A stretch of DNA of 64,000 nucleotides from Drechmeria coniospora. Taxonomy: Eukaryota; Ascomycota; Sordariomycetes; Hypocreales; Ophiocordycipitaceae. Below the pieces are notes generated by a model. The model saw only the letters and a list, made by a program, of their open reading frames with translations. It did not search any database and was not told the origin of the DNA. Below, in pieces: positions 1,869-30,127 of this stretch (position 1 is the stretch's first letter; each line of letters starts with the position of its first letter). The translations under genes were made by a program, and so were the position numbers. The stretch is from the NCBI RefSeq assembly GCF_001625195.1, contig NC_054389.1, forward strand, positions 3,158,520-3,222,519, given 5' to 3'.

Positions 1869-2704
1869 GGCCTACTATAAAACAGGCTAGTAGAGAAAGG
1901 TGGGAGTGGCCTAACCTAGCTTGGAAAGAGGTTAAAGAGGCTATTAATTCGTCTTCGAATAAAAAAGCCCCAGGGCCCGATACTATCGGTTTCCCCCTTA
2001 TCCAGCAGACTTATAAGGTTATTCCTAAATTCCTCTACAAGGCCTATAACGCTTTATTTACAGAAGGCTACCACCCTAAGCTATGGCGACAAAGTATAGG
2101 CATTATCCTCCCTAAGCAAGGCAACCGAGACTATAGGAAGCCTAAGTCTTACAGGGTAATAGCCTTACTAAATTGCCTAGGCAAAGTCCTAGAAAAACTA
2201 TTCGCTACGCGATTAAGCTACCTAGCCAATACTACAGACCTATTAGGCCCTACACAACTAGGCGGGCGGAAACAAAGGTCTGCAATAGATACAGCCCTAT
2301 TACTGACCCACTATATCGAATTACAGCGCCTATCAAGGAAAAAGGCTAGTAGTACTATTACTACTACATTATTTCTTGATATTAAAGGCGCCTTCGATCA
2401 CGTATCAAAGGCTAAGCTTATAGGGGTTTTACGAAGGCTAGACCTCCCAAAGGCCCTAATTAGCTGGGTTATATCGTTCCTATCAGGCCGATCGATCCAA
2501 CTAGCCTTCGACGGCCAAATCCACCAACTAGTCGAAATAGCTATAGGAATACCGCAAGGATCGCCTATAAGCCCTATCTTATTCCTAATTTATATTAGGG
2601 ATATTATAGCGGATAAGGCCTTTCAGTTATCCTATATTGATGACTTTAGCCTAACGGTATCGTCTAGATCTGCCTATAAGAACTGCCGGGCGCTAGAAGG
2701 TATT

Positions 2705-4678: not shown

Positions 4679-5940
4679 GTGGTGCCCTAGCCACGTTGGA
4701 ATTATAGGGAATGAAATTGCAGACCAGGTAGCAAAAGGAGGCCTAACTAGGCCTAGTATAGGTACCCCTATACCTCCCTAAGCTATCTACGGAGGAGGGT
4801 AAAAGAAGTAGCCCTAGGGGGGTGGAAGGAGCTATGGGCTAGGGAGGAGGCCCGAGGCCCTAAGGCTAGGGGCCTAGGGGCCCACTATCAAAGGACTGGG
4901 AAACCTAGGTTTTCGTATAAGCCTAGCCTATCCGATTTGCCTAGGCCTATCCAATCGGCCTATATACAACTAAAAACAGGGATCGGATACCTTAAGCCCT
5001 ACCAAAAAAAGATTGGAAAAATCGACTCGGATGCCTGTAAGTGCGGGCAAAAACAGACTGTAACCCACCTATTACTGCAATGCGTACGTTATAGGAAGGA
5101 ACGGAAAGACCTAAAGGAAGCCCTACAGGGTAAGCCGCTTACCCTACCGATTTTATTTAGTACTAGGCAAGGAAGGGAGGCTCTATTTGAGTTCCTAACT
5201 ACTACTAATATCGGTACGGCAAAGTGGTACCTAAAGGAATAGTACTAGGCCTAGGCCTAGGGACTAAGATTCGTGAAATGCGAGGGAAAGCTCTACTGAT
5301 TTAATATAAATAGCCAGTCGTTACTGCTAGTTTTTTTTTTTTTTTTCATCCATTACGCGCATGCAGCCCTAGGGGCTATGGCGCGGCGGCCTATAGATCC
5401 CTCAGGGCCTAGAAGACCTAATAGGCCTACTAGACCCTTAGGGCCCTAACGGCCCGCAGGAGCTAACTAGCTAACTAAACTAGCAGTAACGACTGGCTAT
5501 TTATATTAAATCAGTAGAGCTTTCCCTCGCATTTCACAAATCTTAGTCCCTAGGCCTAGGCCTAGTACTATTCCTCTAGGTACCACTTTGCCGTACCGAT
5601 ATTAGTAGTAGTTAGGAACTCAAATAGAGCCTCCCTTCCTTGCCTAGTACTAAATAAAATCGGTAGGGTAAGCGGCTTACCCTGTAGGGCTTCCTTTAGG
5701 TCTTTCCGTTCCTTCCTATAACGTACACATTGTAGCAATAAGTGGGTTACAGTCTGTTTTTGCCCGCACTTACAGGCGTCCGAGTCGATACTGCTAGTTT
5801 AGTTAGCTAGTTAGCTCCTGCGGGCCCTTAGGACCCTAAGGGTCTAGTAGGCCTATTAGGTCTTCTAGGCCCTAAGGGACCTATAGGCCGCCGCGCCATA
5901 GCCCCTAGGGCTGCATGCGCGTAATGAATGAAAAAAAAAA
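4679..5940 (+). mobile_element. LINE copy C: RNase H end plus 3' UTR, split by a minus-strand insertion
   Basis: It begins inside the RNase H domain ([10 protein letters not shown]) and runs through the CCHC motif, the ORF2 stop and the 3' UTR to a poly(A) tail at about 5,931-5,940. It is interrupted at 5,331-5,788 by a minus-strand LINE 3' end flanked by TACTGCTAG on both sides. The open stretch 4,937-5,242 is the C-terminal tail of ORF2 ([16 protein letters not shown]); it is not an independent gene. Confidence 0.87.
5331..5788 (-). mobile_element. LINE copy D: short 3'-end insertion at TACTGCTAG
   Basis: A poly(T) tract is followed by the 3' UTR and the last part of ORF2 in minus orientation, truncated within the CCHC region. 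Direct repeats TACTGCTAG at 5,322-5,330 and 5,789-5,797 are a clean 9-bp target-site duplication. The target is the 3' UTR of plus-strand copy C. Confidence 0.92.
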
Positions 5941-7525
5941 GCATTGGGTCTTTGGCGTATAGGCCTTATAGGCTACAACCTTGGCCCGAATTCCAGCTAT
6001 AAATAGCCTATTTTTAAGGCTATAGCTAGCCTCTTGTTCTATAGGGACGGCAAAAACAATAGACCCAGCGGCCTTACCTAAGCTAGGCCTTTTAAGCCAG
6101 CAGGGCTAGCCCCTAACCGTAACTGGGTTAAAGGTCTCGATTTCCGACTTAGTAATTTCAAGGATATTGGTCTCCGTAAGAATAGGTACCCCGTGTGCTA
6201 CTAGCTTTATCCAGCTAATAGGGGTCTCTATTGCCTCAACCGGATAAGTTTTAAATAGTCCTATCCAGGCTTGTTTTTTTTCTAGTAGTTGGGCTGCTGT
6301 ATAGGGCTCTATTGTTGTAATAACTAGGTTGCCCCTAGCCGATAGCTCGATGCTAGCTACGGCTATAGCCCCTAAGGTCTTATTTAGTGCATTCCGTAGC
6401 GTTAGTGCGCGTACTTGGGGTCTATTTTCTGTAGGTCCCTTAGGCTCCTTTCGGAGTTTTAGGATTACTTATAAGCCTTCCTTTGTAGGGCGTTTGGGCC
6501 CGTTGGTTCTGCTAGGCCTGTCAGGCCCACCAGGCCCGTTGGGCCCTCTAGGCCCGTTGGGCCCGTTAGGCCCGCTAGGCCCGCTAGGCCCGCTAGGCCC
6601 GCTAGGCCCGCTAGGCCCGTTAGGGCCCTTGGGTCCTCGGCCCCTTGGTGGGACGACCGCCCAGGCGCTGTTCTGGAGACCTGTAGGTATAGGTGTTTGG
6701 GCTGCCTCGCCATAGCTCTTCGGGCCCCTTGGAAATGCATTTTGTAGTGCATTTATAAGGGGTTCGAAGAGGCTATATAGCATCTTCAATACTGTACTTT
6801 GTATAAGTATAGTAGCCTGTTGGATCTGTAGGGCTAGGTCTTGGCCCTCGTTTTGGTCGGTAGTTATAGGCCTAGATATCCCCTTTTTAGCTAGTTTAGG
6901 TAGCCTTTCAGGAGACTCTAGGTCTGCGTGGGTTCGTTTCCGTTGTTGTAGTATAAGGGGGGTTTCGGGAGTTTCTGGTTGGGTAGGGGCTTCTAGGGTT
7001 TCCGTATCCTCTAGGTCTTCCATATCGGTATCTGTAGGTTGACCTAGGGATATAAGTTCGATTTCGTCTTCGTTTATTGTATTTTCTTCGTTTTCTACAA
7101 TTGTATTGGTATTTTTAGTATTTTCCTGATTTTCCTGATTTTTTCCTGATTTTCCCTGTATAGGGTAGGCTGAGCCTGATTTTCCTGATTTTTTTCCTGA
7201 TTTTTCTGGTATAGGGTAGGCTGGGCTAGGGCCGGGCCTGTAGCCGGGCCTATAGTCGGGTGGGTTGGGTAGGTTGGGTGGGTCTCGCTGGGTGCAATCG
7301 GGTGGGTCTCGTTGGGTGGGGTCGGTACGCGCGGGGTTGCGTTTCTGGCGGCCCTCTTCCTCCCAGTTGAAGGTATCTTTGACCCCCGACTGCACGCGCG
7401 TAATCGGCTGCGCGCGGCTGTAACTTGAGGATCGTAATGTCCCAATTGAGGGGAATTGAAAGAACTGCAATTTGGCTATTTTATTGTGGTTTCAATCGAT
7501 CGGGTGGGCGCGTGGTGTTGATGTT
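5941..7525 (-). mobile_element. LINE copy E: 5' UTR and ORF1, minus strand, broken
   Basis: The 5' end of the element (AACATCAACACC on the minus strand) is at about 7,525, next to an unrelated T-run. ORF1 is inactivated. The ATG used in the intact copy is ATA here (about 7,375), a frame change occurs in the NQEKNQEN repeat zone near 7,110, and a CAA-to-TAA change near 6,468 ends the frame right after the collagen-like tract. ATG to ATA and CAA to TAA are both the RIP type of change. The segment ends inside the ORF1 zinc-knuckle region, where it abuts the poly(A) tail of copy C. Confidence 0.88.
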
Positions 7526-8460
7526 TTTTTTTTGTAACTAACGGCTGCGTTATAACTATCTTATAGGATATTGCGCTTAATACTACTATCCTATATAGTT
7601 TTATGAAGTGCGTAATATAGCTTAATAAGTTTAATTTTATTGGGTTAATTTATTCCCCTAGCTAATACTAGTTTTTATTTAAAGCGTACGTAGAATAAGG
7701 TAAATGCCTTATTATTTACTTACTCTGGTTATTCGAGCTCGATCTGTACTATCTCCATCCAATAAGGGCCGGTAAAGACGGATTTAAAATAAGCTAAGAA
7801 TTGTAATGGGTTGTACTAGTATAACGGCCCTGCTTTAAAGAAGGCTATAATACGGAACTAAATCTTAGGCGCTAAGTACTGCTAGATGAATATCTACTGG
7901 TCCTTATTGGTATCGATAAACTTACAGTCGGTAACTAGCTTATAGGCCGTAAGTATCTTTTAGGCTGTAAATATAGTCTTATCTCTACTGTATAGTACCC
8001 CTATTGGTATCGGTTTGCGTTAGTCCTAGAGAAGTATTGCTAGGCTATTAATAGTTAAGGGGGTCCGTACCAATCCCAGTATAGTACCGGACTATATCTC
8101 TCGGGATGCTTAATACTATACTACCGTAGCAATTTACTAGTTTAACTACTGGATTTCTGTAAACTAATCGGGTAGTAGTTAACTAGCGGTAGTATTTTAT
8201 TCGCTAAGTAGTATATTATTATCCTATTAATCTATTGTTTAATAGTCTACGGCCTACTGCTTGCCGTAATAAAGGGAGATTTCTTAAATATTATAGAGTT
8301 ACTAGTACTACTAGTATCTAGTGGTCGGAAATAGTTATTAAGAAATCTACGGAATACTAACTTAAGGTACTAGGCATTAAAGTACTTATACTCCAATACC
8401 TGCTTAGTTATAGGATATAAGTTACGTACGGTAGTACGTAACTCTATCCTAGGACATAGC
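7526..8460. other. Decayed AT-rich DNA, not assigned
   Basis: No intact frame is visible. On the minus strand short stretches look protein-like between stops (for example a piece reading roughly FKSVFTGPYWMEIVQ near 7,740-7,800). This suggests a decayed transposon gene of a family I cannot name. Confidence 0.4.
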
Positions 8461-10364
8461 TCTATTAGGCAAAGCCTAATATTATAACATTTAATACTAT
8501 ATTAAGTATATAGCTTAGTATATTTACTTAATGTATAGCCTAAGCCTTAATAGGTATTTAAAGTAATATATATAGCCTTACCTACTATTAGTAAGTATAA
8601 GTAGGTATTTGTACTAAGTTAATAGTTACTTTAGTTAAAATATACTATAATATTTATAAGTTATATAAGTCTTATATAAGTAATTCTCCCTTATTATATT
8701 ATCCTACCCCCTTTACTCTTTATATTACCTATAATAATAATAAGTTATATTTATTTTATATAAATAATATATTCCTATTGTACTATTCTATTACTTTTAC
8801 TTCTGATATTACTTAATACTTTAGTTTTATACCCCTTTCCTTCTTAACTATATCCTACCCTTACTTAATATTATTATAAATAGTTTTAAAACCCCCCCTA
8901 ATGAGAATACTGAAAAAAATAAAAGTAAAAATAAATATTTGTCTAAAAAAAGTTTAATAAGTTTAAATAATATAATTAATATATATTTATATTTTAAGGT
9001 AGTTATAATAATAGTTTACTTATAGTAGTATTAAGTTAAGTCCTTATTAAAGCTACTTTAGTGTTAGATTTTTCCTTTAGGGTATTTAGAATTTTATATT
9101 TTATTTTTTAGCTTACCTATACTTTACTATTTATACAGGGATTTTCCTATTACTATATAAATTCCTTTAGGGCTTTTATTTATATAAATGCTTTTATAAA
9201 TTCCTAAGTTAATTATTTATAGCCTTATTACTTTATAAAGGTATTATATTATCCTCTTTAGCCTTAGGCCCCCCTTATTACTAAAATATATTTAACTTAG
9301 TATTCTTTTTATTAAGTACTATTCTTATTTTAGATTAATAATAGGCCTAGCTTTAAATCCTATACTATTTAACTAAGTAGGAGGTTATTTACTACCCTTT
9401 TAATATAGTTAATATAAAAGGTAGGGTATAGGCCCTAAGGAATATTTAGTATCACTATAGGTAGTATTAGTACTATTAGTACTATAAACTTAAAGGCTAC
9501 TTAATTTAGCTTCCTATATTGCTTATTAGTTTTAATATATTTAAGGCTTAGCTAGAATATATTACCTACCTAAAACTTTTTTACTAAGTAATTTAAAGCT
9601 ATAGCTAACTTATATAAGTATTATGATATAAAGGTAATAGCTATTTATATAATTTGTATTCCTTCCCTTAGGTATAATAAAAATATAACTATTCTTTCTT
9701 TTAGTATTATTATACTTACTTAGTTATCCTTTACTATAGGTATAATATTAATTTTATAGCTTAGTAATAGCCTATTTAAACTAATATTTATAATTAAAGA
9801 CTCATATTATTTAAGGTAAGTTAGTAGGTATTTAGGTAGGCTAGTTAGTTAAAATACTTAAAAAATAAGATTAAGATCTATAGGGTAGTTTAAATTTCTT
9901 AATTTACCCTTTTAGTACTCCTATCTATTTAGGGGTAGTATAAAGTTAATAGGAGTTATTTTATTCCTATAAGGGAATATAAGGATATTTAGAACTTACT
10001 AAGTTAGTTTAATTCTTAGTTTATTATAATTTAAGTAGAAAAACCCTTAAATTACTACTAATAGGTCTTAACCCGTTTTATATAAGTCTTTATACTTATT
10101 ATAGTTATTGCCTTTAGTTAAATAAACTTAAAGAAGTAGTTTATAATAACTATTAGGAATTAGAGGTCCCTTTTATTTTATATTAATAAATTAGTTATAA
10201 AGTTAATTAATATTTACTTTTAGTATTAGTTTAATAGGGAAATTAATTATAAGAATTCCTATTTCTATAGATAGCTCTTATAGCTTTAGTAATAGTAGTA
10301 ATTCTAAATATACTATACTATATCCTATAATATATTATGTTAGTAAAAGTTCTACTAAAGTGTT
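8461..10364 (-). mobile_element. Gypsy family 1 remnant, RIP-degraded
   Basis: The stretch is colinear by eye with about 14,950-16,810 of the complete family 1 element, including shared runs around 8,527-8,720 and 9,730-9,900. Its left edge resembles the family 1 LTR end (aagcctaat...ataaca). It is very TA-rich with stops in all frames. It is cut at the right by a LINE 3' end. Confidence 0.65.
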
Positions 10365-10752
10365 ACGTTATAGGAAGGAACGGAAAGACCTAAAGGAAGC
10401 CCTATAGGGTAAACCGCTTACCCTACTGATTTTATTTAGTACTAGGCAAGGAAGGGGGGCTCTATTTGAGTTCCTAACTACTACTAATATCGGTACGGCA
10501 AAGTGGTACCTACAGGAATAGTACTAGGCCTAGGCCTAGGGACTAAGATTCGTGAAATGCAAGGGAAAGCCCTACTGATTTAATATAAATAGCCAGTCGT
10601 TACTGCTAGTTTAGTTAGCTAGTTAGCTCCTGCGGGCCGTTAGGACCCTAAGGGTCTAGTAGGCCTATTAGGTCTTCTAGGCCTTAAGGGACCTATAGGC
10701 CGCTGCGCTATAGCCCCTAGGGCTGTATGTGCGTAATGAATGAAAAAGAAAA
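10365..10752 (+). mobile_element. LINE copy F: short 3' end with A-rich tail
   Basis: It starts in the last codons of ORF2 (cgttataggaaggaacgg), passes the ORF2 stop and 3' UTR, and ends in tgaaaaagaaaa. It is inserted in the family 1 Gypsy remnant. I could not read a convincing target-site duplication. Confidence 0.88.
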
Positions 10753-11230
10753 CGATTTAAATTATTATTAAAGAAAATCAGTTCTAAATAAACCTATACT
10801 ATATTAATATATAGCATATATAGCTTAAGTAGGGGTATAGTAAAGGAAGGATCCTTATTGAATATATACTAATAAATATAATCCTGGCTAATAGTCTTAC
10901 AAAAGTATTACTAAGAGGTAAATTCCTATACTTCTAAGTACTATTCGGCCTTAAGGATATAATAGGAAGGATTATGCACCCAATCTAATAAAAGGGGTAA
11001 CAATACTACCCTATCCGACCCTATAACCCGTTAGGTATATTGCAATAGCTTTATACAGCTTTAGTATAATTATCTAAAGCTAGGGAGTATTTTGTACCGA
11101 TACGCCAACGGGCCTATAATAGGGTTAAAATCCAAGTGGTTAGTTATATAACGGTATCTATATTTGCGCCTATTTAAGTAGGTACAGAGGACACCTAGTA
11201 GTTAGCAATAACAGTATTAAGAACACTAAT
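10753..11230 (+). mobile_element. Copia RNase H C-terminus and probable 3' LTR remnant
   Basis: At about 10,830-10,970 the plus strand reads EYILTNIILADSLTKVLL and continues to FGLKD. This is the conserved end of Copia polyproteins (IPTxxMLADxLTKxLPRGKF). A purine-rich stretch (aaaaggggtaaca) near 11,000 could be the polypurine tract before an LTR. Stops interrupt the frame further upstream. The copy is incomplete. Confidence 0.65.
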
Positions 11231-11581
11231 AAATTGATTCTGACCTATCTTACGATCCTTGATTTATTGTAGCCCTAGTCCGGGCGGACCCCCTTTTCCT
11301 CTGTTGTATTATAAATGTATTACCTATCCATACAACCTTCTGCAAGCCGACCAGTAACCCCTTATTCTTACACAAATAATCAGTTCTAATTGCAAAGTCC
11401 AATATGCACAAGTCCAGTCTGAGCTGTCCTTCCGTTTACACTACCGACTTACGTCCCCGTATGTCGGTGCAAACTATGGTAGAGTTGCTATGCATCCTGG
11501 CTTGTCCCTTGAGCAGTAAACTAGTAGCGAGTTTCACCGTCCTGTATTGGTAGTGCTATGTATTACGACCCCTGTATATTA
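11231..11581. other. Transition to host DNA, 3' flank of the isolated gene
   Basis: Base composition returns to balanced here. I see no gene; it is probably the 3' untranslated and intergenic sequence of the minus-strand gene ending at 11,582. Confidence 0.5.
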
Positions 11582-12831
11582 TCAGGCCTGCGACTCGGCT
11601 TGCGCGAGTAATCGCATGCGCCAGTCGTTGCATACATCTTCGAAGCCGCCCATAACTTCGCCACATACACCAGCGCACTCCCGTTTTTGTAATCGATCCC
11701 CCCAATTTCCCCGCGTTAGCCACCGCTCGCCCTGTTCGCGCAATTCCTCATCCCTTCGTATTTCCGTCACAATCTCCCTCACACTCCTCAGCCGCCGGGT
11801 TGCCGTTGCTGTCGTTTGACGGGACATGTGAAGGCTGTCCGAGACATAGTTCAGAGTTTGTATCAAGTCCGAGGTAATACAGTGAAGTGCTGTGAGTGAG
11901 TTAAATGCAGAAGTCCATGGCCGCGGCATACACTCGGACAAGGACAACAGGAGTGGTACGAGCTTATCGATAGTGTCGATATCGGGGGCAGAAGCCAATG
12001 GTGACAGGATAGGGAAACTCAGCCTCTGGAGCTGTCGTGTTTGGTGTGTAAGGTGCGTAGTAAGTGCTGAGTGTGCTGTTATTAACCTGTTGCTGCGCTG
12101 TGAGCTTGAAATATCGTCCCAAAAGCGTTGGGGCAGGTATTGACTGCGCACCTCGAGGCACTTCCCTCCACGGTAGACTGTGACCCGAGACCTCGTAGGC
12201 CATCTGTTACTCTTTTAAAAACATCATCTACTTTCCAACCGTAACCCTCCGTCCCACGTCGGGCGAGTGACTCGATATCGTCAATCTTGGCTTGAAGGGT
12301 CGATGGTATCCCAGTCGCATCCAGATCTGATCCCGATTCAATATCGCTCCCATTATAGTCGCCCGTCGAAATGTAATGGTCTCCCTTCTGTGATGAACAC
12401 CTTTTGACGTGACTGCCTCGGTACTGAGTAGTGAAATTGTCTCCATTTGCTTCTGCATCGCCGTGTATTCGCTCGGGATTGATGTTTTGGACAACCGATG
12501 TTGGTAAGTCGCATTTATTGTGATTCTGCAGGAATTCATTTGCCGTCATCCTTCTCTGCTCATCCAGGACACATTCGTCCTCATCTCCTGACTCGGAAAA
12601 TGCATCGGCAAGTTCGTCGGCAAGATTTCCCATCCTATTTCGCGACAAATCGCCTCCATTCACGGGTAGATTTAGGTGCGTCGGGTCCGGGTGGCTCCCA
12701 TTGTTGAAACTTGATGTCGCGCCGTCATTCATCGAATATATCAACTGCTGGCGTGACTGGTGAGAGTTTTGGGAGCTTCCAGATCCTGACGAGCGCCGAG
12801 AGTGACGCGGGGTGCCAGGTAATGAAGCCAT
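11582..12831 (-). CDS. Conserved fungal protein of unknown function, two exons
   Basis: I do not recognise a function. Exon 1 is 12,152-12,831 and exon 2 is 11,582-12,086, joined by a 65-bp intron (12,087-12,151). The donor is GTGCGC, the acceptor AACAG, and the split Arg codon AG|G gives the junction SASR-LITAHSAL. The product is 394 residues. The N-terminus is Ser-rich and basic (MASLPGTPRHSRRSSGSG), followed by an acidic patch near residue 85 (SESGDEDE). The C-terminal half looks helical, rich in heptad-like Leu and charged residues. I believe related uncharacterised proteins occur across Eurotiomycetes, but this is from memory. Normal GC and no RIP marks contrast with both flanks. Either exon read alone gives a misleading shorter ORF. 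Confidence 0.75.
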
Positions 12832-13410
12832 CTAGAATATGTTGTTGTTGAGCAATACCTAGCTTAGCGTCACGGTGTCTCTGAATTCATGCAGGCAATG
12901 ACGTCGGTCGACATTGCTCCAAGGCATTTGAAAATGTCATTACTAATAAGTGTCTTGAGTGTATCGCAATACAGAGCGGAACCTACAGAGTATAATTAGT
13001 AGATATAAAAAACCTATTGCATTATTAACTTATTTATAGTAAACCTCCCCAGTAGCTATAATCTACTTATTTGATTTCTGTAGAATGTTAGTAGTAATAA
13101 GCTATTTGTATTTAGCAGAGTACTATAACGTAAAGTTTAGTAATATAACTACTAAATATTTTAGTATTAGTTATATAAGGAATAATACTACATATACTAC
13201 TGTATTAAAAATATTAATATAAATAGATAGACTTCAATAAGTATAATATATTATTCTAAATAATAAATAGCTCCTACAATAGAAATATAAGCTATACCTA
13301 GATTGTATATATCGAATTGTAAGAGTAAACCTACTTAGGAGCTTTACTTATAAGGGGGGAAGTCCTAAACTATTTTAATATTTTTATATAGTATTTTTTT
13401 AATAAATACT
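12832..13410. other. 5' flank of the isolated gene grading into AT-rich DNA
   Basis: The stretch 12,832-12,980 is balanced in composition and probably holds the promoter and 5' UTR. From about 12,990 the DNA becomes TA-rich and no gene is visible. Confidence 0.5.
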
Positions 13411-13514
13411 TATTATAATATAGACTAGTAATAAGGTAGTATATATAAAGACTATAGAATTTTCGAACTAAAGAGGAAGAAAAGAAAAAAAAAACAGTAA
13501 GTATAGGAAGGAAG
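13411..13514 (-). mobile_element. Left part of a Gypsy family 2 solo LTR
   Basis: It is the reverse complement of the end of the LTR at 50,725-50,910 and 57,185-57,375. With 20,931-21,017 it makes a 191-bp LTR split by the family 1 Gypsy. The 5-bp duplications ATACT at 13,406-13,410 and 21,018-21,022 flank the reconstructed solo LTR. Confidence 0.9.
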
Positions 13515-13686
13515 TATTATAGAGTTACTAGGTAACTGCTCTAGGACTCTTAATAATATTTATTAAAAGACTTAAAGGATAGGAAAACTACTTAGTAACT
13601 AGGGCTTTTAGTTATATATATTCCTTTTAGTAGGTCCCTTAGTTCCTTTCGTTCTCCTATATTAGGCTAAGCCTAATACTATAATA
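13515..13686 (-). repeat. 3' LTR of Gypsy family 1
   Basis: 172 bp, matching 20,754-20,925 apart from transition-type differences. Confidence 0.9.
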
Positions 13687-16600
13687 TACTATTTTACTCT
13701 ACCCGTTTAAAGTAAAGTCTAGCTATAGCTATAGCTAACCTACTCTTCCTTAAGCTAGCTTTCCAATCTATAGCTCCCCCCTAAATTTTTTTTTTTTTAG
13801 TATTTATTAGATACTAAGTATATACGGCCTCCTTCCTATATTATCCCCTATTAGGAGCTTACTAGTTACCTAAAGTAACTAACTCTACCCTACCTTAGCC
13901 CCTTCCTAAATATTTACTAGGTACCTAAGGTAATTAACTTTACCTTACTTTATCCCTTCCTTAGGTATTCCTTAGGTACCTAGGGCGCTTAGTATTACCT
14001 TACTTTTCCCCCTTACTACTTTTTTTATATTACTCTTTTTATTTCCTTCTTATTATACTTTATTATTTTTCTTTTCTTTAACTATTATACCTATTTATTT
14101 TTTAGCTTTTTACTATATAATTATTATTAACTCTTTTACTACCTCTTATTGTACTTACTTTTTTATTACTATTATTCCTTCCCTATAAGGTAGGTTACTA
14201 TTTCCTTATTAAAGCTATTCTATATATCCTTTGGGCTATTAGTTAATAAGCTAGTAATAATAGGAACTATTAATTTTACTCTTACTATTATTACTTTTTT
14301 CTTATAGAGGACTTATTTACCTTTTTATTATTACTATTACTACTATTATATCTATTACTATAAGTACTTCCCCCCCCCCCCCTAGATATAGTTTAGGCTT
14401 ATATTATAGTTATTATACTAATAAGTTAGACTATTATTATACCTTAGGTAAATACTTAGTAAAGGGTAATTCCTTTAATAAGGAGTTTATACCTTTAGAG
14501 GAAGTATATAAAATATACCTCCCTTATATTAACTACCTTATTACTAATAGCTATAATAACTATATATTAAGCTATAGTACTAGTTACTATATATATATAT
14601 ATGTATATACTAAATATATTTAGGTACTATATTTATTTACTGTATACCCTTAGCTATATTGCGCCTTATATAACCTTTATACTTACGCTTAGTGCAATAT
14701 TTATATCTTAGTTAAGGCCCGCCCTAAGGTTAGAACTATACTAAGCGCTTATACTATCCTCTTGCTTAAATTTCTAGCCCTAGGCCGGATTTAGGCCTAT
14801 ACCCTAGCTTTAGCTAAAATAAAACCTACCCTTATACGCTTTACCTATACCCTTACCCCTATACTAAGTATTATCTCTCTCCCTACTACTACTAATAATA
14901 ATAATAACCCGAACTATACCCTTATCCTTACTGCTAATACCTTAACTCTAACTTAAGCGGATAGCTATTTTAGTACTATACTAAGTATATAGTTTAGTAT
15001 ATTTACCTAAGGTATAGCTTAGGCCCTAATAGGTATTTAGAGTAATATATATAGCCTTACCTACTATTAATAGGTATAGAAGGGTATTAGTACTAAGTTA
15101 GTAGCTACCTTAGCCGAAATATACTATAATATCTATAAGTTATATAAGTTTTATATAAATAGTTCCCCTTTAGTATACTATTCTACCCCCTTTACTCTTT
15201 ATATTACTTATAATAGTAGTAGGTTATACCTATTTTATATAAATAGTATATTTTTATTATACTATCCTATTACCTCTACCCCTTATATTACTTATATTAT
15301 TTAGTACTTTTATTTTATACCTTTACCCCTACCTCCCTTAGTTATATTTTACTCCTACCTAAGTACTATAATAAATAGTTTTAAGACCTTTCCTAAAAAG
15401 AATACTAAGAAAAATAAAAGTAAGAAGGATATAAAGACTAATAAGTCTAAGTAGTATAGTTAGTATATATTTATAGTAGTATTAGGTTAGGTCCTTATTA
15501 GGGCCGCTCTAAGGTTAGTTTTTTCCTTTAGTATATTTAAAATTTTATATTTTATTTTATAGCTTACCTATATTTTACTATTAATATAGGGATCTTCCTA
15601 TTACTATACAAATTCCTTTAGGGCTTTCGTTTACTTTAGGGCCTCTATTAGTTCTTAGGTTAGTTATTTATAATCTAGCTATTTTATAAGGGTATTATAT
15701 TATCCCCTTTAGCCTTAGGCCCCCCTTATTATAAGAATATATTTAACTTAGTATTCCTTTTATAAGGTACTATTTTTATTTTAGACTAATAGTAGGCCTA
15801 GCTCTAAATACTATATATACTATTTAGTTAGGTAAAAGGTTATTTACTACCCTTTTAATAAGGTCTATATAAAAGGTAGGGTATAAGCCCTAAGGAATAT
15901 TTAGTATTACTATAAGTAGTATTAGTACTGCTAGTACTATAAACTTAAAAGCTACTTAGTTTAGCTTTCTATATAGCCTATTAGTTTTAATATATTTAAG
16001 GCTAAGCTAGATCTTATTACCTACCTAGAACTTTTTTATTAGGTAACCTAAAGCTATTACTAACTTATATAAGTATTATTATATAAAGGTAATAGCTACT
16101 TATATAATTTCTATTCCTTCCCTTAGGTATTATAGGAAAGTAATAGTCCTCCCTTTTAGTATTATTATACTTATTTAGTTATTCTTTACCTTAGGTATTA
16201 TACTAATTTTATAACCTAATAATAGCTTATTTAGGTTAACTCCTATAACTAAAGACTTTCTATTATTTAGGGTAAGCTAATAGGTAGCTAGGTAGGGCGG
16301 TTAGTTAAATTACTTAAATAAGATTAGGATCCGTAAGGTAGCTTAAACTTTTTAATTTACCCTTTTAGTACTCCTATTTATCTAAGGGTAGTATAAAGTT
16401 AATAAGAGTTACTTTATACTAATAAGGAAGTATAGGAATATCTAAAACTTACTAAGCTAGTTTAATTCCTAATTCGTTATAATTTAGGTAGGAAAACTCC
16501 TAAATTACTACTAATAAGTCTTAAACTATTTTATATAAACCTTTATACTTATTATAGTTATTACTTTTAGTTAAATAAATTTAAAGAGGTAGTTTATAAT

Positions 16601-20753: not shown

Positions 20754-20925
20754 TATTATAAAGTTACTAGGTAATTACTTTAGGACTCTTAATAATATTT
20801 ATTAAAAGACTTAAAGGATAGGAAAACTACTTAGTAACTAGGGCTTTTAGTTATATGTATTCCTTCTAGTAGGTCCCTTAGTTCCCTCCGTTTTCCTATA
20901 TCGGGCTAAGCCCAATACTATAATA
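20754..20925 (-). repeat. 5' LTR of Gypsy family 1
   Basis: 172 bp; followed directly by the GGAAG duplication at 20,926-20,930. Confidence 0.9.
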
Positions 20926-20930
20926 GGAAG

Positions 20931-21017
20931 GGGCTATATATATAGGTAGTCCGAGTATTACGTAATACAAAGTATAGGGTATATTAGAAAAATAGTACGA
21001 TATATAATATTGTTATA
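20931..21017 (-). mobile_element. Right part of the Gypsy family 2 solo LTR
   Basis: It completes the LTR begun at 13,411-13,514. The right duplication ATACT is at 21,018-21,022. Solo LTRs arise by LTR-LTR recombination, so this locus lost a full family 2 element before the family 1 element arrived. Confidence 0.88.
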
Positions 21018-21117
21018 ATACTTACCTTATTTTTAGAGTAGTTAGTACCGCTTATTAAGTATTTAGTATATACAATTTAGCCTTTGTTATATCTCAAACT
21101 ATACCTAAAGAGAAGTA

Positions 21118-21267
21118 TTTTTTTTTATTCATTACGCATATGCAGCCCTAGGGGCTATAGCGCGGCGGCCTATAGGTCCCTTAGGGCCTAGAAGACCTAA
21201 TAGGCCTACTAGACCCTTAGGGTCCTAAGGGCCCGCAGGAGCTAACTAGCTAACTAAACTAGCAGTA
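21118..21267 (-). mobile_element. LINE copy G, left part (3' UTR)
   Basis: Poly(T) followed by the minus-strand 3' UTR up to CTAGCAGTA (21,259-21,267). The rest of this copy resumes at 28,604 with the same CTAGCAGTA, so a 7.3-kb plus-strand LINE complex lies inside it. Confidence 0.87.
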
Positions 21268-21620
21268 AAAACCCCAGGGCCCGATACTATTGGCTTCCTC
21301 CTTATCCAGCAGACTTACAAGGTTATTCCTAAATTCCTCTACAAGGCCTATAACGCGTTATTTACGGAAGGCTACCACCCTAAGCTTTGGCGACAAAGTA
21401 TAGGCATTATCCTTCCTAAGCAAGGCAACCGAGACTATAGGAAGCCTAAGTCTTATAGGGTAATAGCCTTACTAAATTGCCTAGGTAAAGTCCTAGAAAG
21501 ACTATTCGCTACGCGACTAAGCTACCTAGCCAATACCACAGACCTATTAGGCCCTACACAGCTAGGCGGGCGGAAACAAAGGTCTGCAATAGATACAGCC
21601 CTACTACTAACTCACTATAT

Positions 21621-21986
21621 AAAGGAAGCCCTACAGGGTAAGCCGCTTACCCTACCGATTTTATTTAGTACTAGGCAAGGAAGGGAGGCTCTATTTGAGT
21701 TCCTAACTACTACTAATATCGGTACGGCAAAGTGGTACCTAGAGGAATAGTACTAGGCCTAGGCCTAGGGACTAAGATTCGTGAAATGCGAGGGAAAGCT
21801 CTACTGATATAATATAAATAGCCAGTCGTTACTGCTAGTTTAGTTAGCTAGTTAGCTCCTGCGGGCCGTTAGGACCCTAAGGGTCTAGTAGGCCTATTAG
21901 GTCTTCTAGGCCTTAAGGGATCTATAGGCCGCCGCGCCATAGCCCCTAGGGCTGCATGCGCGTAATGAATAAAAATAAAAAAAAAA
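21621..21986 (+). mobile_element. LINE copy I: 366-bp 3'-end insertion
   Basis: The last part of ORF2, 3' UTR and an A-rich tail (aaaaataaaaa...) are inserted in the RT domain of copy H. The direct repeat CTCACTATAT is at 21,611-21,620 and 21,987-21,996. Confidence 0.92.
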
Positions 21987-22384
21987 CTCACTATATTGAA
22001 TTACAGCGCCTATCGAGGAAAAAAACTAGTAGTACTATTACTACTACATTATTCCTTGACATTAAAGGCGCCTTCGATCACGTATCAAAAGTTAAGCTTA
22101 TAGGGGTTTTATAGAGGCTAGACCTCCCAAAGGCCCTAATTAGCTGGGTTACATCGTTCCTATCAGGTCGATCGATCCAACTAGCCTTTGACGGCCAAAT
22201 CCACCAACTAGTCGAAATAGCCATAGGAATACCGCAAGGATCGCCTATAAGCCCTATCTTATTCCTAATTTATATTAGGGATATTATAGCGGATAAGGCC
22301 TTCCAGTTATCCTATGTTGATGACTTTAGCCTAACGGTATCGTCTAGATCTGCCTATAAGAACTGCCGGGCGCTAGAAGGTATT

Positions 22385-22487
22385 TTTTTTTTTTTATTCA
22401 TTACGCGCATGCAGCCCTAGGGGCTATGGCGCGGCGGCCTATAGGTCCCATAGGGCCTAGAAGACCTAATAGGCCTACTAGAAGGTA
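22385..22487 (-). mobile_element. LINE copy J: 103-bp 3' UTR insertion
   Basis: Poly(T) and about 85 bp of 3' UTR in minus orientation. The direct repeat CTAGAAGGTATT appears at 22,373-22,384 and 22,488-22,499; part of it may come from the element end. The target is the same nucleotide, just after the YIDD block, as for copy B at 2,704. Confidence 0.88.
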
Positions 22488-22840
22488 TTGTAACTAGGCT
22501 TACAGCCCAAGCAACGGCCCAAGGGGTCCAATTTGACCACGGGAAAACGGAACTAATCCACTTTACTACACAAAGAGCCCCTATAACGGAAGGTGTAACA
22601 ATAGCTAATATAGCAATTTCACCAAAGCCCGTTATTAGGTGGCTAGGTATTTGGTTCGACTCAAAGCTATCGTTTAAATCACACATCGAAAACCGGATAG
22701 CCCTAGCTAGGGCCGCCTTCCTAGGCCTATCTAGGCTAGCAAGTACCCAAAAGGGCCTACCCTATAGGGCACTACGGCAACTATATATTGCTTGTATTAC
22801 TACTATAGCGGACTTCGGGGTCCCTGTTTGGTACAAAGGC

Positions 22841-22885
22841 CAGGGCCAGGGCCAGGGCCAGGGCCAGGGCCAGGGCCAGGGCCAA
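22841..22885 (+). repeat. Hexanucleotide (GGGCCA)n coding Gly-Gln
   Basis: About seven to eight in-frame units in the ORF2 stretch following YKGQG. The intact copy has GQGPGQ here (41,754-41,772) and the minus-strand copy near 4,305-4,320 has about three units. The expansion keeps the reading frame. Confidence 0.9.
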
Positions 22886-24579
22886 AAAGGCCTAATACAG
22901 TACTATCAACGCCTACAAAACGAGGCCCTACCGAAGGTCCTAGGGGCTTTTAGGGGGTCCCCTACAAAAGCCCTAGAAATTGAGGCCGCAATCCCCCCGC
23001 CGGAGATACGGTTCCAGAAGGCCTGCCTAGGCTACGCCCTAAGGACCCTAATGTTTCAGTACAACCACCCGATCCGTAGGGCCTATAACATAGCCGTACG
23101 GGACGAACTAGCCGAATCGGGGTCTGATTTAGGTACTTTTACCTATATCAGGCCTATAACACAGCTATTCCGGCTACTATCGAAAATCAAGGAAATAATA
23201 GGTCCTAACTGGGGCCTAGAGAGACAAAGAGCGGCCTGGCAAGCCCCCTGGGCCCTAGGGCCTAGGGCCTCTATAAGTATTTCGCAAAGCCCTAAGGAGA
23301 CCGCTAAATTAGAACACGAAACCCTTCTAAGAGACCTAGAATTTAATAACTGTATTATTTATTATACAGACGGGTCACAAGGGACTATTAGGGGTCAAAC
23401 AACGAACTCGTGCGCCTATTACGAAACGGACCCTACAGGCCGGGCCCTAGGGGCAAAGGCCTATAACCTAGGCCCTAGGATCGAGGTAGTTGATGCCGAG
23501 CTAATTGGTATAACGAGGGCCCTAAAGGCCTTATCCCAACGAAACCCCCTACCGCAAGAAGCCTATCTTTTTATAGATAGCCAAGCAGCTATTCAGAAGG
23601 TAACCGTAGGCTATAGCGACCTAGCCTATAAGGCAAGGCAGTTAGTAAATAGCCTAGCGGACCGGAAAGTAGCTATAACCCTAACGTGGTGCCCTAGCCA
23701 CGTTGGAATTATAGGGAATGAAATTGCAGACCAGGTAGCAAAAGGAGGCCTAACTAGGCCTAGTATAGGTACCCCCCATACCTCACTAAGCTTTCTACGG
23801 AGGAGGGTAAAGGAAGTAGCCCTAGGGGGGTGGAAGGAGCTATGGGCTAGGGAGGAGGCCCAAGGCCCTAAGGCTAGGGGCCTAGGGGCCCACTATCGAA
23901 GGACTGGGAAACCTAGGTTTGCGTATAAGCCTAGCCTACCCGATCTGCCTAGGCCTATCCAATCGGCCTATATACAACTAAAAACAGGGATCGGATACCT
24001 TAAGCCCTACCAAAAAAAGATTGGAAAAATCGACTCGGACGCCTGTAAGTGCGGGCAAAAACAGACTGTAACCCACCTATTACTACAATGCGTACGTTAT
24101 AGGAAGGAACGGAAAGACCTAAAGGAAGCCCTACAGGGTAAGCCGCTTACCCTACCGATTTTATTTAGTACTAGGTAAGGAAGGGAGGCTCTATTTGAGT
24201 TCCTAACTACTACTAATATCGGTACGGCAAAGTGGTACCTAGAGGAATAGTACTAGGCCTAAGCCTACGGACTAAGATTCGTGAAATGCGAGGGAAAGCT
24301 CTACTGATTTAATATAAATAGCCAGTCGTTACTGCTAGTTTTTTTTTTTTTTTTTTTTTATTCATTACGCGCATGCAGCCCTAGGGGCTATGGCGCGGCG
24401 GCCTATAGGTCCCATATGGCCTAGAAGACCTAATAGGCCTACTAGACCCTTAGGGTCCTAAGGGCACGCAGGAGCTAACTAGCTAACTAAACTAGCAGTA
24501 ACGACTGGCTATTTATATTAAATCAGTAGAGCTTTCCCTCGCATTTCACGAATCTTAGTCCCTAGGCCTAGGCCTAGTA

Positions 24580-27500
24580 CTATTCCTCTAGGTACCACTT
24601 TGCCGTACCGATATTAGTAGTAGTTAGGAACTCAAATAGAGCCTCCCTTCCTTGCCTAGTACTAAATAAAATCGGTAGGGTAAGCGGCTTACCCTGTAGG
24701 GCTTCCTTTAGGTCTTTCCGTTCCTTCCTATAACGTACGCATTGTAGCAATAGGTGGGTTACAGTCTGTTTTTGCCCGCACTTACAGGCGTCCGAGTCGA
24801 TTTTTCCAATCTTTTTTTGGTAGGGCTTAAGGTATCCGATCCCTGTTTTTAGTTGTATATAGGCCGATTGGATAGGCCTAGGCAAATCGGGTAGACTAGG
24901 CTTATACGCAAACCTAGGTTTCCCAGTCCTTCGATAGTGGGCCCCTAGGCCCCTAGCCTTAGGGCCTCGGGCCTCCTCCCTAGCCCATAGCTCCTTCCAC
25001 CCCCCTAGGGCTACTTCCTTTACCCTCCTCCGTAGATAGCTTAGGGAGGTATAGGGGGTACCTATACTAGGCCTAGTTAGGCCTCCTTTTGCTACCTGGT
25101 CTGCAATTTCATTCCCTATAATTCCAACGTGGCTAGGGCACCACGTTAGGGTTATAGCTACCTTCCGGTCCGCTAGGCTATTTACTAGCTGCCTTGCCTT
25201 ATAGGCTAGGTCGCTATAGCCTACGGTTACCTTCTGAATAGCTGCTTGGCTATCTATAAAAAGATAGGCTTCTTGCGGTAGAGGGTTTCGTTGGGATAAG
25301 GCCTTTAGGGCCCTCGTTATACCAATTAGCTCGGCATCAACTACTTCGATCCTAGGGCCTAGGTTATAGGCCTTTGCCCCTAGGGCCCGGCCTGTAGGGT
25401 CCGTTTCGTAGTAGGCGCACGAGTTCGTTGTTTGACCCCTAATAGTCCCTTGTGACCCGTCTGTATAATACATAATACAGTTATTAAATTCTAGGTCCCT
25501 TAGAAGGGTTTCGTGTTCTACTTTAGCGGTCTCCTTAGGGCTTTGCGAAATACTTATAGAGGCCCTAGGCCCTAGGGCCCAGGGGGCTTGCCAGGTCGCT
25601 CTTTGTCTCTCTAGGCCCCAGTTAGGGCCTATTATTTCCTTGATTTTCGATAGTAGCCGGAATAGCTGTGTTATAGGCCTAATATAGGTAAAAGTACCTA
25701 AATCAGACCCTGATTCGGCTAGTTCGTCCCGTATGGCTATGTTGTAGGCCCTACGGATCGGGTGGTTGTACTGAAACATTAGGGTCCTTAGGGCGTAGCC
25801 TAGGCAGGCCTTCTGGAACCGTATCTCTGGCGGGGGGATCGCGGCCTCAATTTCTAGGGCTTTTGTAGGGGACCCCCTAAAGGCCCCTAGGACCTTCGGT
25901 AGGGCCTCGTTTTGTAGGCGTTGATAGTACTGTATTAGACCTTTTTGGCCGGGGCCCTGGCCTTTGTACCAAACAGGGACCCCGTAGTCCGCTATAGTAG
26001 TAATACAAGCAATATATAGTTGCCGTAGTGCCCTATAGGGTAGGCCCTTTTGGGTACTTGCTAGCCTAGATAGGCCTAGGAAGGCGGCCCTAGCTAGGGC
26101 TATTCGATTTTCGATATGTAATTTAAACGATAGCTTTGAATCGAACCAAATACCTAGCCACCTAATAACGGGCTTTGGTGTAATTGCTGTATTAGCTATT
26201 GTTACGCCTTCCGTTATAGGGGCTCTTTGTGTAGTAAAGTGGATTAGTTCCGTTTTCCCGTGGTCAAATTGGACCCCTTGGTCCGTTGCTTGGGCTGTGA
26301 GCCTAGTTACAATACCTTCTAGCGCCCGGCAGTTCTTATAGGCAGATCTAGACGATACCGTTAGGCTAAAGTCATCAATATAGGATAACTGAAAGGCCTT
26401 ATCCGCTATAATATCCCTAATATAAATTAGGAATAAGATAGGGCTTATAGGCGATCCTTGCGGTATTCCTATAGCTATTTCGACTAGTTGGTGGATTTGG
26501 CCGTCGAAGGCTAGTTGGATCGATCGGCCTGATAGGAACGATATAACCCAGCTAATTAGGGCCTTTGGGAGGTCTAGCCTTCGTAAAACCCCTATAAGCT
26601 TAGCCTTTGATACGTGATCGAAGGCGCCTTTAATATCAAGAAATAATGTAGTAGTAATAGTACTACTAGCCTTTTTCCTTGATAGGCGCTGTAATTCGAT
26701 ATAGTGGGTCAGTAATAGGGCTGTATCTATTGCAGACCTTTGTTTCCGCCCGCCTAGTTGTGTAGGGCCTAATAGGTCTGTAGTATTGGCTAGGTAGCTT
26801 AATCGCGTAGCGAATAGTTTTTCTAGGACTTTGCCTAGGCAATTTAGTAAGGCTATTACCCTGTAAGACTTAGGCTTCCTATAGTCTCGGTTGCCTTGCT
26901 TAGGGAGGATAATGCCTATACTTTGTCGCCATAGCTTAGGGTGGTAGCCTTCTGTAAATAAAGCGTTATAGGCCTTGTAGAGGAATTTAGGAATAACCTT
27001 ATAAGTCTGCTGGATAAGGGGGAAACCGATAGTATCGGGCCCTGGGGCTTTTTTATTCGAAGACGAATTAATAGCCTCTTTAACCTCTTTCCAAGCTAGG
27101 TTAGGCCACTCCCACCTTTCGCTACTAGCCTGTTTTATAGTAGGCCTCCTACTAGGCCCACTAGGTCCGTTAGGCCCGTTAGGCCCGCTAGGTCCGCTAG
27201 GCCCGCTAGGCCCGCTAGGCCCACCAGGCCCACTAGGTCCGTTAGGTCCGTTAGGCCCGCTAGGCCCGCTAGGCCCGCTAGGCCCGTTAGGCCCGTTAGG
27301 TCCGTTAGGCCCGCTAGGCCCGCCAGGCCCGCTAGGCCCACCAGGCCCATTAGGTCCGTTAGGTCCACCAGGCCCGCTAGGCCCGCTAGGCCCGCTAGTC
27401 CTGCTAAGCAGCCTACTAGGCCCTATAGGTTCTGTTGGCTCCGTTAGTTCTGTAGGCCCTGTCGGAAATAGGGTTGTAATAAAGGCATCGCATTTTTCCT

Positions 27501-28450
27501 GGAAGGTATTTGCTATTATATTTCTTCCTTCATTAGTATACAATATACCCGGAAGGTTAGTATTCTGGCTAGCTTTTGTATAGTTATAGGCTTGGAAAAC
27601 CTCCTTATTAACTGCATTAGCTAGAAAGGTCTCCCAGTAGCCTACTTTAGCCTTCCGAATAGCATAAAAATAGGCATTACGGGCCGTTTTCCAGTCTTCT
27701 TTGCATTTCCGGTTTTTCCGAAATAGTCTTTGTGTACGGCTAAGGGTCTTCCGTAAGTCTAGTAGCTCGGGGGTCCACCAAGGCTTAGACCGTTCACTAG
27801 GCCGTAGCCTAGGGATTGCCTCTATAGCTACTGCCTGTATAGCCTCTGTAATTAGTATAGCTATTCCATCTAGATCCCTTACTGAAATTAGGGTATCTAG
27901 TTGCTGATTTAGGGATGCCTGCTTTTCCTGTAATAAACAGTTATACTTATTCCAGTTGGCCTTCTTATAATTGAATAAGGGGGGCCTAGACTGGAATAGT
28001 AGGCTTGCTGTAGGTAGGACAGGCGCCCTAGCTTCAAAGGCGATTACCTGGTGATCGGACCCGGATGCCTCTAAGTACCTCCAGTTAGACCAGTTTAGTA
28101 GGTTAAAAGGGGTACTAAAGGCTAGGTCAATAATAGACCTAGACTTTAAGCCGGGCCTAAAATAGGTGCCCCCTTTAACCTCTTCTGGGTCCTGGATTAG
28201 GCTAGCCTTCTGGCTTGTTAGCCAGTTTACTAGCCTTTGTGCCTTAGTAGCCCTAATAGGGTCTACCGCTGGATTCCATAATGGGTGATGTAAGTTGAAA
28301 TCCCCTATAATAAGTGTAGGCTTATTGCATCTATAGGGTAGAAGGAGCCTCTCGACTGTATAGGGGTTCTGGCTTGGTTGCCCGCTAGGCCTAGCGCTAG
28401 GCCTAGGCCCGTTAGGCCCGTTAGGCCCGTTAGGCCCGTTAGGCCCGTTA
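24580..28450 (-). CDS. LINE ORF2, 5'-partial: endonuclease C-terminal part, RT, RNase H, CCHC
   Basis: The frame is open from the truncation point in the endonuclease (28,450) to the TAG at 24,580. Codons from 27,543 down give a protein identical to that of the full-length copy. Motifs: GDFNLHHP and SDHQVI (endonuclease), the Gly-Pro tract (27,148-27,462), SYIDDFSL (RT active site), YYTDGSQ / VDAELIGI / FIDSQAA / NEIAD (RNase H) and [16 protein letters not shown] (zinc motif). It lacks the first endonuclease block, the 5' UTR and ORF1, so it cannot be autonomous. The TTG at 27,543 is not a credible start. Confidence 0.85.
27148..27462 (-). repeat. 9-bp minisatellite in LINE copy K (endonuclease-RT linker)
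   Basis: In-frame Gly-Pro-Ser/Asn/Gly units, reverse complement of the array at 40,254-40,568 and apparently identical in unit order. Confidence 0.92.
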
Positions 28451-28603
28451 TACTGCTAGTTTAGTTAGCTAGTTAGCTCCTGCGGGCCGTTAGGACCCTA
28501 AGGGTCTAGTAGGCCTATTAGGTCTTCTAGGCCCTAAGGGACCTATAGGCCGCCGCGTTATAGCCCCTAGGGCTGCATGCGCGTAATGAATGAAAAAAAA
28601 AAA

Positions 28604-30127
28604 CTAGCAGTAACTACTGGCTATTTATATTAAATTAGTAGAGCTTTCCCTTGCATTTTACGAATCTTAGTCCCTAGGCCTAGGCCTAGTACTATTCCTC
28701 TAGGTACTACTTTACCGTACCGATATTAGTAGTAGTTAGGAACTTAAATAGAGCCTCCCTTCCTTACCTAGTACTAAATAAAATCGGTAGGGTAAGCGGC
28801 TTACCCTGTAGGGCTTCCTTTAGGTCTTTCCGTTCCTTCCTATAACGTATACATTATAGTATTAGGTGGGTTACAGTCTGTTTTTGCCCGCAATTCCAGG
28901 CGTCCGAGTCGATTTTTCCAATCTTTTTTTGGTAGGGCTCAAGGTATCCGATCCCTGTTTTTAGTTATATATAGGCCGATTGGATAGGCCTAGGCAAATC
29001 GGGTAGGCTAGGCTTATACGCAAACCTAGGTTTCCTAGTCCGTTGATAGTAGGCCCCTAGGCCCCTAGCCTTAGGGCCTTGGGCCTCCTCCCTAGCCCAT
29101 AGCTCCTTCCACCCCCCTAGGGCTACTTTCTTTACCCTCCTCCGTAGATAGCTTAAGGAGGTATAGGGGGTACCTATACTAGGCCTAGTTAGGCCTCCTT
29201 TTGCTACCTGGTCTGCAATTTTATTCCCTATAATTCCAACGTAGCTAGGGCACTACGTTAGGGTTATACCTACTTTCCGCTCCGCTAGGCTATTTACTAG
29301 CTGCCTTACCTTATAGGCTAGGTCGCTATAGCCTACGGTTACCTTCTGAATAGCTGCTTGGCTACTATTTATAAAAAGATAGGCTTCTTGCAGTAGGGGG
29401 TTTCGTTAGGATAAGGCCTTTAGGGCCCTTGTTATACCAATTAGCTTGGCATCAACTACTTCGATCCTAGGGCCTAGGTTATAGGCCTTTGCCCCTAGGG
29501 CCCAGCCTATAGGGTCCGTTTTGTAGTAGGCGCATGAGTTTATTGTTTGACCCCTAATAATCCCTTGTAACCCGTCTGTATAATAAATAATACAGTTATT
29601 AAATTCTAGGTCCCTTAGAAGGGTTTCGTATTCTACTTTAGCGGTCTCCTTAGGGCTTTGCAAAATACTTATAGAGGCCCTAGGCCCTAGGGCCCAAGGG
29701 GCTTGCTAGGCCGCTCTTTGTCTCTCTAGGCCCTAGTTAGGACCTATTATTTCCTTAATTTTCGATAGTAGCTAGAATAGCTGTGTTATAGGCCTAATAT
29801 AGGCAAAAGTACCTAAATCAGACCCCGATTCGGCTAGTTCGTCCCGTATAGCTATATTGTAGGCCGTACGGATCGGGTGGTTGTACTGAAACATTAGGGT
29901 CCTTAGGGCGTAGCCTAGGCAGGCCTTCTGGAACCGTATCTCCGGCGGGGGGATTGCGGCCTCAATTTCAAGGGCTTTTGTAGGGGACCCCCTAAAAGCC
30001 CCTAGGACCTTCGGTAGGGCCTCGTTTTGTAAGCGTTAATAGTACTGTATTAGGCCTTATTGGCCCTAGCCTTTGTACTAAACAGGGACCCTGTAATCCG
30101 CTATAGTAGTAATACAAGCAATATATC
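28604..30127 (-). mobile_element. LINE copy G, right part (older, RIP-marked)
   Basis: It continues copy G after the CTAGCAGTA duplication: 3' UTR, ORF2 C-terminus, RNase H and the start of the RT C-terminal region. Many Gln/Trp/His codons have become stops or TA-type variants (for example the fragment open only at 29,406-29,663), so it is the oldest LINE layer here. It is cut at 30,127 by a Copia LTR. Confidence 0.88.

Follow-up and report, generated by a model that had tools for sequence, protein, structure and literature searches.

Repeated insertion of a LINE at one base of its own 3' untranslated region in Drechmeria coniospora, and its apparent confinement to centromere-like clusters

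A stretch of 64,000 bp from the nematode-parasitic fungus Drechmeria coniospora (C1:3158520-3222519; here called the window), about 25.8 kb (40%) of which belongs to one family of a long interspersed nuclear element (LINE), raised the question why this element inserted three times at exactly the same base of the 3' untranslated region (UTR) of its own copies. A sequence-only reading of the window had explained this by a sequence preference of the endonuclease and by a mode of landing in its own tail that would keep insertions out of genes. We followed the element through the whole genome of 32.8 Mb, which consists of 28 contigs, three of them large and representing the chromosomes (12.54, 10.20, and 9.75 Mb; C1 to C3). 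The three insertions were confirmed, self-targeting proved largely unnecessary to account for them, and the stronger finding is a young and, by its reading frames, intact LINE that is apparently strictly confined to centromere-like clusters in a fungus.

The longest LINE copy in the window (36806-43374, plus strand, poly(A) tail up to 43374) served as coordinate reference, and in this copy the site in question, named site A, is intact at 43216-43227 (minus strand; TACTGCTAGTTT, in insert sense AAACTAGCAGTA). Insertion A1 (5331-5788, minus strand, 5' truncated at reference position 42915) interrupts a plus-strand LINE copy at 4674-5940, which remains as the pieces 4674-5333 and 5783-5940, and is flanked by a left duplication at 5322-5333 (plus strand; TACTGCTAG followed by TTT in common with the poly(T)) and its right copy at 5789-5800. 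Insertion A3 (21268-28603, plus strand, 5' truncated at 40664) likewise splits a minus-strand copy at 21118-30126 into the pieces 21118-21268 and 28601-30126, with the duplication located at 21256-21267 (plus strand; AAACTAGCAGTA) and 28601-28612, and was itself interrupted later at 21620-21984, 22383-22482, and 24339-28450. The last of these is insertion A2 (24339-28450, minus strand, 5' truncated at 39266), whose duplications lie at 24330-24341 (plus strand) and 28451-28462. All three are antisense to the 3' UTR of their target, at one identical base flanked by TACTGCTAG/CTAGCAGTA, and were found within a single 23-kb stretch of C1. Because three of its A's merge into the poly(A) tail, the duplication AAACTAGCAGTA measures 12 bp (13 bp at A3) and not 9 bp as first read, which shifts the implied nick from CTAG^TTTAG to CTAGTTT^AG.

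In a region full of duplicated and rearranged blocks, such junctions might also be copies of a single insertion spread by segmental duplication or gene conversion, and copying of this kind does occur here. A genome-wide search for poly(T)-filled site A junctions (at most one mismatch) revealed five, of which those on the unplaced contigs C14 and C15 copy A1, leaving three independent ones, and two junctions at a further site (site C, described below) share an identical flank of 254 bp. For site A itself, however, copying of one insertion is extremely improbable, being excluded by three different truncation points (42915, 39266, and 40664), by the separate duplications, by the position of A2 inside A3, and by different target copies, which were distinguishable by substitutions (about 100 bp of each compared). 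Since both the 5' truncations and the target copies differ, A1, A2, and A3 are three independent events. Empty versions of the site (at most two mismatches, so that more decayed sites would be missed) were detected at 50 places, 44 of them exact, five with one mismatch and one with two; five of the six inexact matches proved to be the downstream half of a filled site, of which three lie in the window and two on C14 and C15. Overall, 45 intact sites were counted genome-wide, 28 of them on the three chromosomes, and the genome-wide search for filled junctions revealed none on C2 or C3.

In order to see how representative site A is, LINE 3' ends were collected genome-wide with a pattern allowing up to two mismatches, resulting in 65 places, 60 of which were read as genuine ends; five two-mismatch matches outside the clusters described below were taken as chance hits and left unread, and an entry at C1 3165923 was spurious. 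Twenty of the 60 were removed as copies of one insertion on redundant contigs based on matching flanks (23 lay on unplaced contigs, and 20 of these were judged redundant), leaving 40 non-redundant insertions: 15 on C1, 11 each on C2 and C3, and three on unplaced contigs. LINE-aligning flanks were found for 15 of them at 11 sites, namely site A (three times), site B (reference 41403, twice), site C (about 39899-39901, twice), and, used once each, 41415, 41008, 38583, 42565, 41321, 43162, 39060, and 36995. Only four insertions hit the LINE 3' UTR (three at site A and one at 43162), while 11 lie elsewhere in the LINE and 25 outside it; the flanks of C2 1880780 and C3 7988140, with partial LINE similarity, were counted as non-self. 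Thus, a general mode of landing in its own tail is not supported, apart from an excess at site A over motif and copy number discussed below. The constant orientation, too, applies to site A but not to self-insertions as a whole (eight antisense versus seven sense). In regard to target-specific LINEs such as R1, R2, and Tx1L, in which nearly all insertions occur at one sequence, the element differs, since three of 40 insertions are at site A and 37 elsewhere, among them one double (B) and one possible double (C).

What does unite the insertions is their location. In total, 37 of the 40 lie in one repeat cluster per chromosome (C1 3.00-3.20, C2 1.66-1.91, and C3 7.86-8.10 Mb), which together span about 0.68 of 32.5 Mb, and the remaining three are on small unplaced contigs. 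The same clusters or small contigs contained all 60 3' ends read and 56 matches to the 3' region (40 of 53 candidates scored), as well as 63 matches to the reverse transcriptase (RT) region (58 of 105 candidates scored) and 26 to the 5' region (25 of 25 scored). Copies were found by these genome-wide searches neither in the chromosome arms, nor at RT-element sites near chromosome ends, nor in C3 2.22-2.55 Mb. Of 98 RVT_1 matches in the genome, those not belonging to this LINE are also located in arms, near chromosome ends, and around the clusters, most of them with stop codons. Of the non-self flanks, 23 of 25 have a relative elsewhere in the cluster sequence examined, one of them weak (72.6%, C3 7903130), while in that sequence C1 3169256 matched only itself and C3 7970982 matched nothing. 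For the avoidance of genes, which the sequence-only reading had ascribed to landing in the tail, restriction of the family to a single cluster on each chromosome is the better explanation.

The genome description (PMC4792172) characterizes the centromeres of D. coniospora as regional, acrocentric, repeat-rich, and low in GC, and mentions active repeat-induced point mutation (RIP) as well as a shorter centromere-like region on chromosome III thought to be vestigial; an enrichment of retrotransposons at centromeres or duplicated centromeric regions is also mentioned there and in PMC7500977, which names Dan1, Swe1, and Swe3 as independent assemblies of the fungus. In the parts of both papers available to us, this LINE is not mentioned. 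By comparison with that description, the three clusters are presumably the centromeres. A further RT-dense region, C3:2215629-2553625, contained nine RVT_1 matches and no detected copy of the LINE; two 3-kb samples from it showed 35-39% GC and a TA/AT of about 2, while a 2-kb sample from an arm gave 51% and 1.2. Six 3-kb loci near one end of C1 ranged from 39 to 63% GC, so that a low GC content by itself is no sufficient criterion. By inference, the region would be a candidate for the published vestigial centromere.

Confinement could also be apparent, in that insertions occur genome-wide and only centromeric ones survive selection or RIP. This seems quite unlikely to us: gene disruption is indeed costly in a compact haploid genome, yet the copies appear young, and none were found in arms, at the RT-element places near chromosome ends, or in the repeat-rich C3 2.22-2.55 Mb.

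The coding content of the element is seen in its reference copy. Open reading frame (ORF) 1 (36886-38799, plus strand) shows zinc-knuckle-like cysteines by eye, though no Pfam zinc-knuckle match, and a Gly-Pro-x array, whereas ORF2 (38793-43136, plus strand; 1447 codons stop to stop) encodes an APE-type endonuclease, an RT, and an RNase H, followed by the 3' UTR and poly(A) (43137-43374, plus strand). Pfam matches in ORF2 comprised Exo_endo_phos_2 (E 1.3e-14), Exo_endo_phos (2.9e-7), and RVT_1 (8.2e-26), with the APE-like endonuclease upstream of the RT as in APE-type non-LTR (long terminal repeat) elements; RNase_H (E 1.6e-7, 32 bits versus a cut-off of 25.8) was matched in a 987-aa frame and is unlisted for the 1447-aa frame. 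Against structures, the RT region matched L1 ORF2p (E about 2e-6) and, as top match, 8ibw, another RT-like protein (1e-6). An RNase H domain after the RT, as seen in this LINE, and an ORF1 with a CCHC zinc knuckle are typical of the Tad1 clade, of which the element would be a candidate member. Further features of APE-type elements, i.e., 5' truncation, poly(A) tails, and target-site duplications, are all present: an A-rich tail was seen in all 60 genuine 3'-end rows, following GCGCGTAATGAATGA-like ends, and the 5' ends varied. Identity to the query is 97-100% in many of the 56 3'-region matches, and several copies keep long open frames, by which the LINE appears young and intact. The mutually inverted copies 24342-28450 and 39266-43374 are 99.98% identical over 4.1 kb, which would reflect either very recent activity or gene conversion. 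In addition, 9-bp tandem arrays at 37838-38011, 39192-39312, and 40310-40564, which lie within ORF1, the endonuclease region, and the linker between endonuclease and RT, respectively, encode collagen-like Gly-Pro-Asn/Ser triplets.

Within the clusters, the choice of the exact base was analyzed by means of duplications and pre-insertion sites. Duplications of at least 8 bp were sought in those 21 of the 40 insertions with both ends in the sequence examined, and the script could take A's from the tail, provided that they were present in the 5' copy. They were found in 11 of 21, all beginning with AA and nine of them 12-13 bp long. In the other ten (B1, the site C copy at 35766, the reference copy, 34478, 10752, the 21118 copy, C1 3005973, C2 1867435, 1873808, and 1878939) none was found; some of these coincide with visible rearrangements, and for some the 5' end may have been placed wrongly. 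For non-self targets, uninterrupted relatives revealed the sequence before insertion in 18 of 25 flanks, and 14 of these 18 showed AA at the nick, preceded by T in ten of the 14. A motif model was built on the 14 sites, using the insertion's own upstream sequence for five of them. Thus, targets inside and outside the LINE share a loose, degenerate T|AA(G/C) nick motif (insert sense), which would imply a TT(T)^A-like first-strand nick, i.e., CTAGTTT^AG at site A. The supposed endonuclease preference therefore stands as a degenerate one common to non-LINE targets, while fixed recognition of TACTGCTAG was rejected, as other targets share only the AA context. CTAG as a shared motif was discarded as well: it is enriched (0.27 versus 0.085, n = 37), but seven of its ten occurrences are sites A, B, and C themselves.

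Taken together, we consider it probable that a cluster-confined LINE with ordinary integration, a degenerate nick, and an excess of 3' copies accounts for the locus. The young APE-endonuclease LINE would stay within the single presumed centromere cluster of each of the three chromosomes, possibly owing to centromeric chromatin, and would integrate by ordinary target-primed reverse transcription. Nicking by the endonuclease at a degenerate site would free a primer with a terminal TT(T), to which the poly(A) tail anneals, and cutting of the second strand would then produce a 12-bp duplication beginning with AA(A). Inside the cluster, the LINE would land in any repeat there, which in about two fifths of cases is another LINE copy. 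Since 5' truncation affects most copies, no part of the LINE is more abundant than the 3' UTR; site A would be used repeatedly because its T|AAAC nick context is near-optimal and its copy number the highest, and always antisense because this context is on one strand.

Whether motif and copy number suffice was assessed by simulation, with copy weights from 43 of 44 LINE pieces (one C14 piece overlapping the window omitted) rather than from all copies genome-wide. When landing was uniform apart from these weights, no triple arose in 20,000 or in 40,000 simulations, and landing restricted to AA-type sites resulted in P = 0.004 for any site used at least three times. With a motif model excluding site A, this site ranked first of 13,114 positions by motif times copies (P = 0.007 for any triple); with a non-self-only model, it scored within the top 0.5% for the motif and came 8th-13th by motif times copies in nine parameter settings. 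A CTAA-only null (triple P = 0.10) and an [ACG]TAA null (P = 0.023) were set aside as unjustified, because many insertions lie elsewhere than at sites of this kind. The coincidence is thus largely accounted for by the nick preference and the surplus of 3' copies, with a modest excess left, to which site B with its poor motif belongs.

Several points weigh against this account, and with them true self-targeting has to be considered, in which the LINE machinery recognizes site A in the element's 3' UTR, by sequence or by structure, and lands there preferentially. Three independent events hit one base, and under the non-self model in all nine settings, P remained 0.0065-0.045 for any site used at least three times, 0.0002-0.0009 for at least three insertions at site A itself, and 0.0009-0.023 for at least four coincident pairs. 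Site A was used three times versus 0.11-0.19 expected even with motif times copy weights. Site B was used twice, though its motif score is merely in the top 8%. The four non-self sites dropped from the motif model because of low identity or ambiguity (C2 1659415, C3 7903130, C3 7968799, and C27 8184) show one A or none at the nick in their best relatives, and the assignment of the clusters to centromeres rests on the published description. Finally, self-insertions (15 of 40) exceed the LINE share of the C1 stretch, which is 10.7% (28.3 kb of 264 kb, including 11.7 kb of N; P = 8e-6), also on C1 alone (8 of 15, P = 5.5e-5). This share, however, is a figure for C1 only, and the C2 stretches read were picked around LINE copies; the excess weakens at a true share of 15-20% (P = 0.0004-0.008) and comes near to expectation inside the LINE-dense window (8 of 12 versus 40%, P = 0.057). 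Landing in a LINE-dense centromere core would therefore lead to much self-insertion without self-recognition. In addition, merely three of 40 insertions use site A, its 28 intact chromosomal copies carry no insertion, a filled version was detected on neither C2 nor C3, 25 insertions are outside the LINE, 14 of 18 readable non-self sites have the same AA nick, and site B and possibly site C are reused as well, so that we regard true self-targeting as unlikely. A combined, stronger version, in which a Tad-like LINE strictly targets the chromatin of functional centromeres, is missing from the old centromere-like region on chromosome III that was probably inactivated, and has a preferred 3' UTR landing pad beyond motif and copy number, is in our view rather doubtful as well.

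Regarding the remaining insertions of the window, the sequence-only reading had cited those at 21,621, 22,385, 34,478, and 35,767 as signs that the preference is not absolute; two of them have to be read differently. The copy at 34478-35767 (minus strand) is internally deleted and its 3' end faces a non-LINE repeat, so that it is no LINE-in-LINE insertion, and that at 22,385 marks the reused site B. The latter, insertion B2 (22383-22482, minus strand, 100 nt), lies at reference 41394-41405 with a clean 12-bp duplication, while the second user of site B, insertion B1 (2704-4679, minus strand), has its 3' junction there, a rearranged 5' side, and no detected duplication. A sense insertion at 21620-21984 (plus strand; reference about 41007) carries the duplication AACTCACTATAT. 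The copy with its 3' junction at site C (35766-36162, minus strand) has a rearranged 5' side without a detectable 5' duplication. The flanks of site C on C1 and C14 are identical over 254 bp and 92.8% identical with gaps over a longer flank of 1.1 kb, and the two inserts differ at four positions over 397 aligned. Because of the identical flanks and the missing 5' duplication of the C1 copy, site C was not accepted as a clean second reuse, and the copy in the window is perhaps not an independent event. LINE junctions without target-site duplication, some with inverted pieces, were also seen at 2704-4679, 34713, 36162-36163, and 36800, which suggests later recombination between inverted copies. 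A run of N (C1:3146861-3158519) directly precedes the window, and contig C14 overlaps positions 1-2349 at 99.7% and extends leftwards with further nested LINE copies.

With human L1, which has an APE-type endonuclease and integrates by poly(A)-primed target-primed reverse transcription at T-rich nicks, the element can be compared in its enzymology, but L1 is dispersed with longer and variable duplications, while the duplications of the LINE described here are mostly 12 bp long and its ORF2 includes an RNase H domain. Closer parallels are found among centromere-associated LINEs. Zepp forms strictly one nested, probably centromeric cluster per chromosome in Coccomyxa (PMC3446292), and the putative centromeres of Chlamydomonas have ZeppL as their major repeat (PMC8226300). 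The detected copies of our LINE share this mode of life, with one nested cluster per chromosome and, on the placed chromosomes, none elsewhere, nesting into existing copies, and enrichment of 3' ends through 5' truncation (PMC3446292, PMC8226300). In contrast to these L1-type algal elements, which are described as tandem arrays mostly of 3' ends, copies are nested here in both orientations and 25 of 40 insertions lie outside the LINE. Celine of poplar is likewise a centromere-enriched LINE with a degenerate motif and some self-nesting; its short motif (AAGA or AATA) was judged insufficient to set location, and in P. simonii about 7% of copies are self-nested and about 65% in LTR elements, each element's duplication, scored at 10 bp or more, being reported as unique (PMC11288735). 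Here, by contrast, 15 of 40 insertions are in the element itself and one duplication occurs three times. The Drosophila element G2/Jockey-3 shows signs of recent activity, is centromere-enriched, and has been suggested to target centromeric chromatin, with about 63% of D. melanogaster copies centromeric (PMC6516634, PMC11620609), whereas here every copy detected on a placed chromosome lies in a cluster. LINEs confined to centromeres or enriched at them are already known from algae, plants, and flies, and the fungal element appears to work like these; the titles and abstracts of the literature searched reported no centromere-confined LINE from a fungus, which does not exclude one. If strict targeting and a landing pad should both prove true, the clusters would represent a centromeric nest that renews itself, an analogue of algal Zepp that arose independently. 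Altogether, a loose nick motif together with 5' truncation can give rise to what looks like a fixed self-target site, and a fungus with three chromosomes, several published strain assemblies, and a young, apparently intact LINE would make centromere targeting by LINEs directly testable.

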